Positions 2,827 through 14,378 of a stretch of DNA of 58,507 nucleotides are shown piece by piece. The stretch is from a virus. The notes below the pieces were generated by a model that ran no database searches, was not told where the DNA came from, and was given only the letters and a program-made list of their open reading frames with translations. How positions within the stretch are numbered: the first letter of the stretch is position 1; each line of letters opens with the position of its first letter. The stretch lies in the IMG/VR virus record IMGVR_UViG_3300031669_000032, positions 1-58,507 of that record; one strand, 5' to 3'. A program made the position numbers and the translations under genes.

Positions 2827-4256
2827 TTGTATATTATCTCCTTTTTCTCTCTATTAACCAGCAGCACCGATAGCCTTTGCTCCGCTATCTTGACATGTTC
2901 AGCTACCTTATCGCAGCCTATGAAATCTCTATTCATCCCGGCTGCAGCCAGTAGACTTGACCCGCTGCCGGCATAAAAGTCCCCGATCAGATCACCCGGT
3001 CGACTTGCAAGCGTTACCAGGTAAGCGAATATCTGCACTGGCTTTTCAGTTAGGTGCGCCTCTCTGCCGACCTTTGTTGACGCCGATGGTTTCGGCACTG
3101 GTAGGAATGGGTATGTTTTGGGCAACTTTTCGCGGCACCAAGAATCGAAACAAAAATATCTGGTATATGAGCCGGAATCCTGATAACCGGTCGAGGCTTC
3201 ACTTTTATTTCCAAATATACCTTTTTTACTTCCACTGCCAGATTTTCCGCCATTTACAATAGACTTTGCAGGCCTTGATTTTTCACATTCTCCGGTATCA
3301 AGTAGGTCGCCCTGGACGAGCAGGTTTGTGGGGTATCTGCCGTCAAGTCGTTTCCATTGATTCTCTATTCCGTAATTATTAATTAATTTTCCACCAACAA
3401 ATTTATCCTGCAATCCGCTTACCTCCCGTCGTGTATCCTCGCCCATCAACGGCACCCTACACCTATCAAGCCAGGTGCAAGCATGGCCGTTCATTATTGT
3501 CGCTGTGACGTAATCGCTTAACTTTGTATCTCGGTACGGGGTAGACTCGACTAATTTTCCATCAATCCACAACTCATCATTTAAGGCCGGATTAATGGCG
3601 ATCTTTCTGATAGTTTTCGTCTTTTCCCTTTTGGTCTCGAAATAATCTATTTTATGTTTTTCCCAGATTTCCGACCGCTTCACTTTCTCTACTGGCTTCA
3701 TGGCCGTGATTATTATTTCCAGGCACGGCTTCGGACGGTACCTAACGTATGCACCGTCAAATTCTTTTGCAAGGTCGGAAGCTGGGGCGGTGATTTTCCC
3801 TCCCTGCGTTACTGTTTTGCGATACCCCTCTTTTACTCTTTTTACAGAAATACCATTCGGCCTTGTGTATTCCTTTATAACCTCTCCCTCCACTCCCAGC
3901 CTCTTATCGATCATTTTCGACACATTAGCACCCAACCCAATCCCGGTAGCATATGTCCAATAAATTGACGGGAAGTCAATCATGAACCCAGCATCTTCGA
4001 TAAGCCTGGTCATCCGGTAAAGCAGGTCCTGCCTGGGAGATGAGAACACGAAACAGAACGCGCCGGGCTTCAATACCCTGAACATTTCAAGAAAGGCTTC
4101 CTTCGACGGTAAAACCTTGTCCCAACTCACTCCCATAAGCTTCATCCCGTAGGGAGGATCCGCGGCTATCATATCAAGCTTATTGTCCGGGATTCTTTTC
4201 AGTAATTCGATATTATCGCAGTGGTAAACTTTATTCGTCAATATTTTGGGTTCCAT
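2823..4256 (-). CDS. DNA methyltransferase, beta class with large target-recognition region
   Basis: A 477-residue enzyme with DPPYG at 33-37 (motif IV, typical of N6-adenine methylation) and DFYAGSGSS at 426-434 (SAM-binding motif I). The roughly 300 residues between include a large insert, probably the target-recognition domain. The first 19 bases lie inside the end of the DUF7220-like gene, and its stop overlaps the start of the second methyltransferase. The pair is probably translated together. Confidence 0.9.
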   Translation of the reverse strand: MEPKILTNKVYHCDNIELLKRIPDNKLDMIAADPPYGMKLMGVSWDKVLPSKEAFLEMFRVLKPGAFCFVFSSPRQDLLYRMTRLIEDAGFMIDFPSIYWTYATGIGLGANVSKMIDKRLGVEGEVIKEYTRPNGISVKRVKEGYRKTVTQGGKITAPASDLAKEFDGAYVRYRPKPCLEIIITAMKPVEKVKRSEIWEKHKIDYFETKREKTKTIRKIAINPALNDELWIDGKLVESTPYRDTKLSDYVTATIMNGHACTWLDRCRVPLMGEDTRREVSGLQDKFVGGKLINNYGIENQWKRLDGRYPTNLLVQGDLLDTGECEKSRPAKSIVNGGKSGSGSKKGIFGNKSEASTGYQDSGSYTRYFCFDSWCREKLPKTYPFLPVPKPSASTKVGREAHLTEKPVQIFAYLVTLASRPGDLIGDFYAGSGSSLLAAAGMNRDFIGCDKVAEHVKIAEQRLSVLLVNREKKEIIYK

Positions 4257-8650: not shown

Positions 8651-8982
8651 TTTATTACCTCCTTCTCCTCGATAATTTCCAACTCTTCTGCAGCCACCCA
8701 CCATCCAACCTTTGCTGTCTTGTGAGCTTTTCCAGATTTGGTTATTTTCGCCAGGTGGTATTCGATCTTGAACTTTTCATGGTGACCTATCCTTCTTTCC
8801 ACCACTATTCCAATTGCCCCGCAGTCGTATCCACTTTTAGTTTTCACTTTTTGGCCCTGCTTTAGGCCGGTTTCGTTCATGTATTCCCATTCAGCATTTT
8901 TGATTTCTGTTTTTATGATTGACAGGGCGCTTGTGATTTTCCGCTTCCTGTCATATAGTTTTTGTAATTTTTCTTTGGTCAT
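8647..8982 (-). CDS. Hypothetical protein, 111 aa
   Basis: N-terminal basic coiled-coil helix (about 1-38), then LKQGQKVKTKSGYDCGAIGIVVERR, a KOW/SH3-like strand pattern, and an acidic tail EELEIIEEKE. It may be a small nucleic-acid or protein binding barrel. Overlaps flanking genes by ATGA on both sides, including the helicase-loader gene before it. Confidence 0.6.
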   Translation of the reverse strand: MTKEKLQKLYDRKRKITSALSIIKTEIKNAEWEYMNETGLKQGQKVKTKSGYDCGAIGIVVERRIGHHEKFKIEYHLAKITKSGKAHKTAKVGWWVAAEELEIIEEKEVIK

Positions 8983-9644
8983 AATTTCTTACCTCCCAGT
9001 AAATTGAACCTAAACTCTTCCCGCCTATCCCTGCCCTTCATTTCCAAAATAAGGGCCTGCTCTTTGATGCGGGATAAGGCAGTATCTATGTCAATCTTAT
9101 CGTATGGATTAAGATTCATTGTGATAATAATTTTCCGGGCTGCCAGGCGCTCAAATAGATCATTGAACTGCTTGACGAAGTCCGTCGAGGTTGTCTCCCT
9201 TGAACACCAAAAGTCATCAAATATGACAAAATCTGCAGTTCTAATATCTTCAATTTTACCTTGATTCTCTGTCGTCTCATACCCGCCGCGCTTCGATAGG
9301 TAAATATTCCTTTCAAGCTCGGTTGTCTTAATGAATTCAACATCCCGATAGGTCCCGGTTTTCGCTGCCCACATATTCATGAGGTAATACGCAAGCCTGG
9401 TCTTACCCCTGCCGGTTAAGCCATACAATACCAGGGTTGTTAACTCGGAGTAATCGGTATCAATGAACTTTTCAGCTATCATTTCCCAGTCATTCTTATA
9501 TCCGGTATTATCCCAGGGGCCCCGGTATTTCGGTGGGATCATTTTATTCCTGATCCTTTCTCTTTGGCAATCGCAGTGCTTGGCATAAGGCCTGCCGTCC
9601 TTCTCATACTGAATCCAACCGGTGCCGTTGCATTTGCAGATCAT
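8979..9644 (-). CDS. DnaC/DnaI-like helicase loader ATPase
   Basis: A 221-residue AAA+ protein. N-terminal C-x-C (3-5) and CDC (24-26) form the zinc site usual in DnaC-like loaders. Walker A is GLTGRGKT at 75-82, Walker B is VIFDDF at 140-145, and a late Arg-rich stretch could hold the arginine finger. It would load the host DnaB helicase at the phage origin together with the initiator encoded just upstream, to which it is joined by ATGA. No phage helicase, primase or polymerase is seen, so the host replisome is probably used. Confidence 0.85.
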   Translation of the reverse strand: MICKCNGTGWIQYEKDGRPYAKHCDCQRERIRNKMIPPKYRGPWDNTGYKNDWEMIAEKFIDTDYSELTTLVLYGLTGRGKTRLAYYLMNMWAAKTGTYRDVEFIKTTELERNIYLSKRGGYETTENQGKIEDIRTADFVIFDDFWCSRETTSTDFVKQFNDLFERLAARKIIITMNLNPYDKIDIDTALSRIKEQALILEMKGRDRREEFRFNLLGGKKL

Positions 9645-10453
9645 GTTGGTTTCCCCGATGAGTTGCGGAAGTGGTCGAATTGTTGGTTGGTTTTCTTTTT
9701 ATTCCAGTCTACCATTTTTTCAAAATACCCATTCAGGTTATCTATTGAAATGAACACATCTACATTTTCAAATACCTTATTCCATCGTTTCGCAAAAACA
9801 AAACCCCAGTTTTTCGCTTTACATTCTTGAAAGTATAAATTTACGCGGCCTGCAAAGTCATTAATTTCTATCTCCTGCTTTTTTAATATCTTTAACGTCT
9901 CTTTGAATGTTTTATCGTTCGTAATTGGAATGCCGGTTAACTCTTGAAATTTTGTTTTTTGTTGCTCTAATTTATCTTGAGAATCTCCTTTACTTTTCTT
10001 TCCTTTACTTTCCTTTACTATACTTGTGGGATTAATGTTTACATTATGCCCATTCAGTGGGGTTTTTGTTGACAATAATCCTATTAACTGGGGTTTCGTG
10101 ACAACATTAACCCCTCTCCGTTGGTAAACTGCTGACAAATTGTCAATAAAATTTTGACTTCTAATAATTCCCCCCCTCCATAATTCACTATCAATTGCAT
10201 CTACCTCAGCTAATGTGTCGAGTATTTTCTTACACATCCCCTCATCCAATAGAGATTTGGCAAGAATGAATCTCCATGTAGGTTTATCTCTACAATCAAT
10301 AAAATGATTTTCTGTACTCCCTAATAGTTCGAGGACTTTAAACCAAAACGCGTATCCATTATTACCATATTCAGATTCAAGGATATAAATGGTTTTCCCA
10401 TTTGCTGTGTAATGCGGGAAATACTCAACTATTGCTTTTTTTGGTCTTGACAT
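9641..10453 (-). CDS. DUF4373-type phage replication initiator
   Basis: A 270-residue protein. The N-terminal 110 residues have MSRPKK...YFPHY, a winged-helix type layout with W..KVLELLG and a conserved FI..C/D region as in Lin1244/Lin1753-like (DUF4373) replication proteins. A Lys/Ser-rich linker at about 145-165 separates a C-terminal helical domain likely to bind the loader. The linker DNA holds three 9-10 bp direct repeats that could be origin iterons. Confidence 0.75.
   Translation of the reverse strand: MSRPKKAIVEYFPHYTANGKTIYILESEYGNNGYAFWFKVLELLGSTENHFIDCRDKPTWRFILAKSLLDEGMCKKILDTLAEVDAIDSELWRGGIIRSQNFIDNLSAVYQRRGVNVVTKPQLIGLLSTKTPLNGHNVNINPTSIVKESKGKKSKGDSQDKLEQQKTKFQELTGIPITNDKTFKETLKILKKQEIEINDFAGRVNLYFQECKAKNWGFVFAKRWNKVFENVDVFISIDNLNGYFEKMVDWNKKKTNQQFDHFRNSSGKPT
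9986..10019 (-). repeat. Three short direct repeats in the initiator linker, candidate iterons
   Basis: On the plus strand CCTTTACTT occurs at 9986-9994 and 10001-10009, and CCTTTACTA at 10011-10019. They encode the Ser-Lys-Gly linker of the initiator. Lambdoid phages place their origin inside the O gene in the same position, so an origin here is plausible; a low-complexity linker alone could also explain it. Confidence 0.35.
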
Positions 10454-10684: not shown

Positions 10685-10941
10685 AGTTTATCTCCTGACC
10701 GGAATGTCGCGATACCAGTTTCCTCCAACCAACAACGATAACAAAATGTGGTTAATTCATCGGCCAAATATTCCCATCTTTCTAATCCCAGAAAATTCTT
10801 ATAGTGAATCATACCAGTATTACTTTTGCCACAAATCTGGCAGGTATAATTATCTCTTTTTAAAATTTTGTTATTTTTTTTCTGCCAATTTGATTTTTTG
10901 GATATATCAGGTAGGACTTTCTTTCTATTCTTTCTCTTCAT
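10681..10941 (-). CDS. Degenerate HNH-type protein, 86 aa
   Basis: After a Lys-rich start comes RDNYTCQICGKS, MIHYKN, then WEYLADELTTFCYRCW. This is the skeleton of an HNH/McrA domain (RDNYTCQ.CG...VHH...CxxCH), but the VHH catalytic pair is IHY and the last His is Trp. Both zinc CxxC pairs are intact. It probably binds DNA without cutting, or is a decayed nuclease. Translation starts after AGGAGACCGC, which is part of a structured leader. Confidence 0.65.
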   Translation of the reverse strand: MKRKNRKKVLPDISKKSNWQKKNNKILKRDNYTCQICGKSNTGMIHYKNFLGLERWEYLADELTTFCYRCWLEETGIATFRSGDKL

Positions 10942-11059
10942 GCGGTCTCCTAAAAAAATAAACCTGGGAACAGGGGATTGAGACCGCGAAGTTTAAATCC
11001 CCTGACAGGGTTCCCAGATTATTATTATTGCTTTTTTTGGTTCGCGGTCTTTTTATCAT
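10942..11059 (-). ncRNA. Structured leader RNA with competing pairings at the start site
   Basis: The predicted transcript from 11066-11094 begins with AGACCGCGAA (11050-11041). A long stem follows: 11017-11010 pairs with 10971-10964, and 11003-10996 with 10979-10972. Its loop contains UUCGCGGUCU (10990-10981). That loop can pair over 10 bases with the 5' element or over 8 bases with GAGACCGC (10949-10942), which includes part of the Shine-Dalgarno sequence of the HNH-like gene. The two pairings exclude each other. The leader is about 118 bases with no open frame. Confidence 0.6.
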
Positions 11060-11065
11060 AATCTT

Positions 11066-11094
11066 ATTATGCGCTAATTCTTTCATTTTGTCAA
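11066..11094 (-). promoter_or_regulatory. Sigma70-like promoter for the replication genes
   Basis: Minus-strand TTGACA (11089-11094), a 17-base spacer and CATAAT (11066-11071). It lies just past the stop of the 11104 gene and would drive the HNH-like, initiator and loader genes through the structured leader. Confidence 0.6.
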
Positions 11095-11103
11095 GTTTTT
11101 TTA

Positions 11104-11580
11104 TTAAATCCTATAATTTATTTCTTTTCCGATTAGTTTCAATCGTTTGACGGCAATAGTTCCTTCTGGATAATAACCAAATGGTTCCTGTGATATGGTT
11201 CCTTCGGCGAGCCTATCGTAGTTACAAAATTCTGGCAATTGCACACGCTCTTCTATTTCGCACTTAAATAAATATCCTCCGTTATTTAAAGCAAAAAGCT
11301 TTGCCTCGTAAAGCACATTAAAGCACATTAAATGATGATCGCTTTTAAATAACCATTCCGGTGCGCTGGCCCATTCATTTATGGTGTAGTTAACTCTTGA
11401 TTCACCATAAGCATCAATTGAAGAATAAACTTTACCATACTGCGCTTTTGCTACAACCTTATAATATCCGTCTCCATAATGATTTTTTTCTGCCAATTCT
11501 ATGATTTTTTTGTGTAGTCTTTCGTTTTCCTTTTTAAGCTCTTTTATTTCTCGATCTTTTTTAAAAATTACATCTATCAT
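11104..11580 (-). CDS. Coiled-coil hypothetical protein, 158 aa
   Basis: Residues 3-32 form a charged coiled coil (REIKELKKENERLHKKIIELAEK). The rest is a mixed domain with YYKVVAKAQYGKVYSS and, near the end, GTIAVKRLKLIGKEI. It resembles phage proteins that pair a leucine-zipper start with a small unknown domain. No function assigned. Confidence 0.6.
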   Translation of the reverse strand: MIDVIFKKDREIKELKKENERLHKKIIELAEKNHYGDGYYKVVAKAQYGKVYSSIDAYGESRVNYTINEWASAPEWLFKSDHHLMCFNVLYEAKLFALNNGGYLFKCEIEERVQLPEFCNYDRLAEGTISQEPFGYYPEGTIAVKRLKLIGKEINYRI

Positions 11581-13837: not shown

Positions 13838-14044
13838 TCATATTGATATAGTCTTAAGGCAAATCCAGAACGCAAGTGCTACGACCAAAATACCCGGTAA
13901 CCAGCAATGCCAGATATATTCAAGAAAAGTCTCCGGAATGTCAATTATCGTAATCTTGATAGCTGATTTCTGTTTACCGACCTCCTTTTTAATCGGCTTC
14001 TTTGCAGCAAGTGAAAAAATGTAAATGATTATTTTCTGCAGCAC
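13838..14044 (-). CDS. Small membrane protein, 68 aa
   Basis: I chose GTG at 14044, directly after the stop of the zinc-ribbon gene, with AGGACAGG upstream; ATG at 14059 (five codons earlier) is the alternative. The product has a basic middle (KKPIKKEVGKQKS) and a C-terminal hydrophobic helix (WLPGILVVALAFWICL). No family recognised. Confidence 0.5.
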   Translation of the reverse strand: MLQKIIIYIFSLAAKKPIKKEVGKQKSAIKITIIDIPETFLEYIWHCWLPGILVVALAFWICLKTISI

Positions 14045-14045
14045 G

Positions 14046-14234
14046 TTACCTGTCCTCATGCTTACATTGCTCGCAAATAATATCGTAATTTTCACATTGG
14101 AAACACATCCAATATGTTTTAAATCGGCACACCGGGCATTCCGCATCCCCATCAGGAGTAGACCTTAATGGTTCTACTTCATTATGACACCTGGGGCAGG
14201 TGATGCAACTTTTCTTGATATAAAAACTTCTCAT
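14046..14234 (-). CDS. Zinc-ribbon protein, 62 aa
   Basis: CPRC, CPVC, CFQC and CEQC pairs give two zinc sites. The order and the CFQC/CFEC block match the 5684-5887 product, so the two are probable paralogs. CAGGAGGTAAC precedes the ATG and is the target of the anti-Shine-Dalgarno loop in the leader at 14235-14378. Confidence 0.65.
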   Translation of the reverse strand: MRSFYIKKSCITCPRCHNEVEPLRSTPDGDAECPVCRFKTYWMCFQCENYDIICEQCKHEDR

Positions 14235-14378
14235 GTTACCTCCTGAATAATTCCCCGCCTGCCCGGTATTCCGGGAATATCAAGCGGGGCTGTAATAATA
14301 ATGCAACCTGGCGGGGGAGAGTTAAACTTAGGAGGTTTATTTGATTTCCCGCCAGGGTGAATATTAAGATATATAATT
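14235..14378 (-). promoter_or_regulatory. Leader RNA with anti-Shine-Dalgarno apical loop
   Basis: Two hairpins precede the zinc-ribbon gene. The first has a perfect 9-bp stem (14348-14356 with 14307-14315) enclosing a smaller stem UAAAC / GUUUA that displays CUCCUAA (14334-14328). The second is CCCCGC / GCGGGG (14289-14284 with 14258-14253) around CCCGG / CCGGG. ACCUCCU of the first loop can pair with AGGAGGU (14244-14238) at the ribosome site. No open frame of note lies here. Confidence 0.5.

Follow-up and report, generated by a model that had tools for sequence, protein, structure and literature searches.

The leader that precedes the replication genes of the virus IMGVR_UViG_3300031669_000032 raises the question of whether 118 nt of RNA can, by the choice between two pairing partners for one hairpin loop, set the translation of the gene that follows. 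The earlier note had proposed two mutually exclusive pairings, one of them involving the ribosome site. We consider that the leader probably acts in cis as a bistable switch governing translation of the replication operon's first gene, and the comparison with a related phage, in which the same design is written in almost entirely different letters, speaks strongly for a genuine RNA switch.

Recomputed on the minus strand of the window (the whole stretch of viral DNA analysed, 58,507 nt), the leader and its pairings were confirmed, and the earlier note proved correct in its observation, its coordinates and its 10- and 8-base pairings (Table 1). A predicted sigma-70 promoter is directed at the leader, with the ATG at 11059 six bases past the -10 box. 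On the opposite (plus) strand there is an 11/12 promoter match (TTGTCA-18-TATAAT, 11088-11117), placed back to back with the leader promoter so that the -35 boxes overlap, which would run antisense to the gene at 11104-11580. The folded leader contains a hairpin of 16 bp, arranged as 8+8 bp around a 6-nt bulge, with a loop of 16 nt. Element A and loop element A' form 10 Watson–Crick pairs, and A' and A'' form 8 bp, or 12 when CTTC:GAAG past the start codon is included, at the cost of a 2-nt bulge. Since both pairings use the same seven loop bases, GCGGTCT, they are mutually exclusive. The U-rich tract that follows the stem may possibly be the tail of a regulated terminator or a spacer within the pseudoknot.

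Table 1. Features of the leader and operon in the window and of the homologous leader in L058. Leader numbering counts the A of the ATG at 11059 as 1, so that the ATG of the HNH-like gene (10941) begins at 119.
Feature	Position	Strand	Leader nt	Remarks
Sigma-70-type promoter TTGACA-17-CATAAT	11066-11094	-		predicted from an 11/12 consensus match
Leader frame, 44 codons from the 5' AUG (MIKRPRTKKSNNNN...HEEKE)	10925-11059	-		17-nt overlap with HNH-like gene start
Element A, AGACCGCGAA	11041-11050	-	10-19	partner of the loop in state 1
A-rich segment AAAAAAAGCAAT	11027-11038	-	22-33	by alignment, in both phages
Hairpin 5' arm CTGGGAAC[CCTGTC]AGGGGATT	10996-11017	-	43-64	by folding; 6-nt bulge
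Hairpin loop	10980-10995	-	65-80	
Loop element A', TTCGCGGTCTC	10980-10990	-	70-80	complements A and A''
Hairpin 3' arm AATCCCCTGTTCCCAG	10964-10979	-	81-96	by folding
U-rich tract GTTTATTTTTTTA	10951-10963	-	97-109	immediately 3' of stem
Element A'', GAGACCGC	10942-10949	-	111-118	at Shine-Dalgarno AGGAG, adjoins AUG
First gene, HNH-like, 86 aa	10681-10941	-		PHROGs HNH endonuclease families, best E 7e-7
Third gene, replication initiator	9641-10453	-		phrog_2562, Lin1244_N
Fourth gene, DnaC-like helicase loader	8979-9644	-		phrog_50, E 5e-18
L058 promoter TTGCAA-17-TATAAT				TG precedes -10 box; AUG nine bases past it
L058 leader frame, 55 codons	L058 3184-3351			overlaps first gene start by 17 nt
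L058 element A, GACACATCGGT				counterpart of AGACCGCGAA
L058 hairpin				15 bp, bulged; sequence unrelated to window's, form alike
L058 loop element A', ACCGATGTGTC				11 bp with 5' element A
L058 U-rich run TTATTTTT				after stem, same place as in window
L058 element A'', ATCGGTCATG				start codon AUG included; 10 bp with loop CATGACCGAT

The main evidence comes from this relative, L058 (IMGVR_UViG_3300037540_000302; 67,550 bases), which was retrieved via homology of its initiator protein and not via structure. It is the closest relative, its initiator being 58% identical to that of the window, and the two phages are collinear. At the homologous place L058 has a promoter, a near-5' AUG, AAAAAAAGCAAT, a bulged hairpin and both loop pairings. 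Past the AUG, AAAAAAAGCAAT is the sole long segment that the two phages share without any change, and it stands at equal distance from the AUG. The two phages have different sequences for element A, the loop, the stem and A'', so pairing has been preserved by change on both sides. When A is aligned by distance from the first AUG, six of the nine shared positions differ with pairing retained; when A'' is aligned by distance from the second AUG, five of seven differ, again with pairing retained and the loop altered to match. Moreover, A'' sits on the start site in both phages despite their different first genes. The pairings proposed by the earlier note therefore recur in L058 with all three elements present in different sequences, and whereas homologous leaders lacking the elements would have counted against that note, the single one found keeps them all. 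In layout both leaders correspond to an anti-anti-Shine-Dalgarno arrangement, that is, an element on the start site together with an upstream competitor. The members are two independent leaders of one lineage; a further contig, IMGVR_UViG_3300043168_000035, comes from the phage of L058 as well and joins the ends of L058.

Could the pairings be chance complementarity, with the L058 leader alike only by descent? AT-rich intergenic DNA does yield some spurious matches, but the criterion of a hairpin loop pairing with at least 10 nt upstream and, in an overlapping manner, with 8 nt or more at the start codon was passed by 0 of 20,000 dinucleotide shuffles of the window leader and by 0 of 20,000 of the L058 leader body, and the pairing segments differ in sequence between the two phages; we regard chance as extremely improbable. 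With thresholds relaxed to 7 and 6, 13 (window) and 24 (L058) shuffles pass. The layout is also rare: a scanner for it detects both leaders and gives 4 other matches in 0.59 Mb, vs 3 and 4 in randomised copies. We also argue against an array of DNA operators, in which A, A' and A'' would be three repressor sites at an early promoter whose specificity had changed between the phages. There are indeed three related sites close to a promoter, and operators do change together among related phages; yet the longest shared stretches (10-11 and 8-10 nt) are those of pairing partners, and the shortest (6-7 nt) is that of A and A''. In both phages the middle copy has the opposite orientation and lies in a hairpin loop, complementarity rather than sequence is what preserves the stem, and A'' adjoins or includes the AUG. 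Considering that similarity peaks between pairing partners and that the stem persists as a structure only, operators are very unlikely.

Two further explanations accept an RNA structure and assign it another task. A metabolite, or a phage or host protein, may bind one of the pseudoknots, most likely via AAAAAAAGCAAT, and so set the choice. That this one long downstream segment stayed unchanged while every paired part changed would fit such a sensor, and A-rich linkers are frequent in the H-type pseudoknot riboswitches SAM-II and preQ1, which control start sites. However, twelve A-rich nucleotides make a poor aptamer core and double as the codons KKSN of the leader frame, and the phages differ in the size and bulge of the hairpin and in the lengths of loop and linker. 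In contrast to SAM-II and preQ1, no conserved aptamer-like, ligand-binding core beyond AAAAAAAGCAAT was seen in the alignment of these two leaders, a small set for such a comparison. The earlier note had matched the leader to no known class, and in agreement the window has no Rfam family match at gathering score, relaxed scans of both leaders giving only sub-threshold matches to unrelated families. We therefore think a sensor of this kind unlikely. Alternatively, the hairpin and U-rich tract may form an intrinsic terminator, so that the pairings would decide between readthrough into the replication genes and release of an RNA of ~105 nt. Both leaders do have a strong stem that leads directly into a U-rich run (GUUUAUUUUUUU and UUAUUUUU), but loops of 16-21 nt are long for a terminator, and a terminator scan with a loop limit of 8 found neither stem. 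Since neither A:A' nor A':A'' disturbs the stem, and attenuation has no need of the A'' that is seen on the start site in both phages, we hold it to be distinctly unlikely.

The energies of the competing folds were obtained from constrained folds with a generic Dirks–Pierce-type pseudoknot penalty and are crude. For the window leader these crude values are -38.2 (A:A'), -36.0 (A':A'') and -32.5 kcal/mol (nested), and for L058 -55.3, -53.6 and -56.0 kcal/mol, respectively. Taken as crude estimates, they place the two pseudoknots within ~2 kcal/mol of each other in both phages, and near-equality is what a switch needs. The nested fold of L058 is as favourable as either pseudoknot, and in both leaders the nested minimum joins the start site to the 5' region; this modelled fold may be a third state. 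Taken alone, the nested minimum free energy is unremarkable for the window leader (z = -1.9) and strong for that of L058 (z = -4.95).

We suggest that the loop chooses between the 5' end (A:A'), which would leave the ribosome site free, and the ribosome site (A':A''), which would hide the Shine-Dalgarno sequence and AUG; we assume the former to be the ON and the latter the OFF state. Because A is transcribed first, A:A' may form before A'' exists, and in both phages this pairing is possible ~35-40 nt of transcription ahead of A'' synthesis. Fresh transcripts would thus carry A:A', with the first gene translated, and the near-equal energies would permit a later shift to the OFF state if nothing keeps the RNA open. 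Folding time, a leader-frame ribosome, a ligand or a protein may serve as the trigger; we infer that translation of the short frame starting with the 5' AUG is the likeliest modulator. With a ribosome on this AUG, A would be covered and the OFF state favoured; a ribosome crossing the hairpin would free the start site, at which it could begin again. In both phages the leader AUG coincides with the predicted transcript start or is only a few bases away from it, which would make its translation leaderless or nearly so. In both phages the leader frame is open across the whole structure; shuffles give such openness with a frequency of 0.13 (window) and 0.06 (L058), with a joint chance of ~0.008, so that openness is suggestive only. 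The peptide is conserved only at KKSN, the codons of the A-rich tract. In L058 the reading frame of the HicB-like gene likewise stays open across the entire leader (3184-3335), so that an N-terminally extended product is possible.

The first gene after the leader is HNH-like in the window and HicB-like in L058, and the switch accordingly belongs to the head of the operon and not to one gene. The window HNH-like gene (no Pfam match at 0.01) encodes a protein 38% identical to that of the second post-leader gene of L058, where the HicB-like gene (3335-3556) stands between the leader and the HNH-like gene; another HicB-like gene is at 1710-1928. In the window the HNH-like gene overlaps the next, which encodes a 70-aa protein on the same strand, by 4 nt, and the later replication genes would respond via polarity or coupling. 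The interpretation in the earlier note is supported in part: it had the leader control the replication genes, whereas the gene directly controlled would be the first one. On the minus strand of the window, ACCAAAAAAAGCAATA (16 nt) is common to the leader (11028-11038) and the initiator gene start (10432-10442), and L058 has AAAAAAAGCAA at both places too. As a signal at the initiator gene start AAAAAAAGCAA was rejected: it is coding there (MSRPKK), and of 58 fetched initiators the other 57 are without it, so that descent explains the sharing by L058.

In searches for further members, BLAST of the leaders against phages gave weak matches only, the best lying in a 65-nt gap between two genes of a Lactococcus phage. 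A tight DNA-pattern scan of viral contigs returned L058 as the only true case; the matches listed from a loose scan were chance ones. Initiator homologues in viral contigs and GTDB genomes gave few scanner matches, chance-like and without the leader layout. Structural-protein searches yielded one contig identical to L058 and a relative of 24.8 kb in which the initiator had no match, and a structural-region protein had no match in genome contigs. A third member was thus not found among initiator homologues, by the tight pattern or among structural-protein relatives in the fetched DNA, and neither phage contains a convincing second copy of the architecture. Elsewhere in the window, the region at 14152-14300 (minus strand), before the ORF at 13838-14152, is leader-like, with GC-rich inverted repeats, and its CCTCCT could pair with a downstream AGGAGG Shine-Dalgarno sequence. 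The element appears either to be restricted to this lineage or to be too variable in sequence for the searches used. Such switches escape sequence-based and ordinary covariance searches, because nothing of the paired sequence need persist from one relative to the next; scanning for loops complementary to both the 5' end and the start site could reveal how common they are. Tentatively, the two leaders may represent a novel type, a pseudoknot switch read by ribosomes from a 5'-terminal AUG and timing a replication operon, in which the pairing sequences are free to change if the loop fits both partners. If the switch reading holds, the onset of the replication programme in a DNA phage is timed by a purely RNA-encoded three-way competition with no dedicated aptamer, and the two leaders are a ready natural set of matched and mismatched elements.

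In its manner of working the leader recalls that of MS2, which is ~130 nt long; both would be delayed-folding leaders with the start site open first, the kinetics being, in our case, inferred. PMC6733600 describes how in MS2 the start site stays accessible in a transient structure until a stable fold hides it (Groeneveld 1995; van Meerten 2001). MS2 is, however, an RNA phage with a nested cloverleaf, whereas here one loop of a DNA phage leader would choose between two pseudoknots. In the plasmid replication control of repY–repZ, the pairing of a hairpin loop reportedly lies close to the beginning of a replication gene, which a leader frame overlaps, and our leader frames (44 and 55 codons) likewise overlap the start of the controlled gene, by 17 nt each. 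In repY–repZ, translation is turned on by the pseudoknot and repressed by an antisense RNA; here pairing would hide the start site, and there is no homology. Across the window leader no convincing antisense promoter was found, with only 9/12 matches at 10826-10866 (plus strand), of which L058 has no similarly placed counterpart. Several mutually exclusive pairings and folding during transcription are also known from the toxin mRNAs hok/mok (PMC4147584) and aapA3 (PMC6733600), and hok has an overlapping leader frame, as here. Those mRNAs encode toxins and involve antisense RNAs and 3' processing, of which nothing similar was seen here, the downstream genes being HNH-like and HicB-like instead of a small hydrophobic toxin. 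The leader shares parts with repY–repZ and hok/mok and would work like the leader of MS2, yet it belongs to none of these systems.
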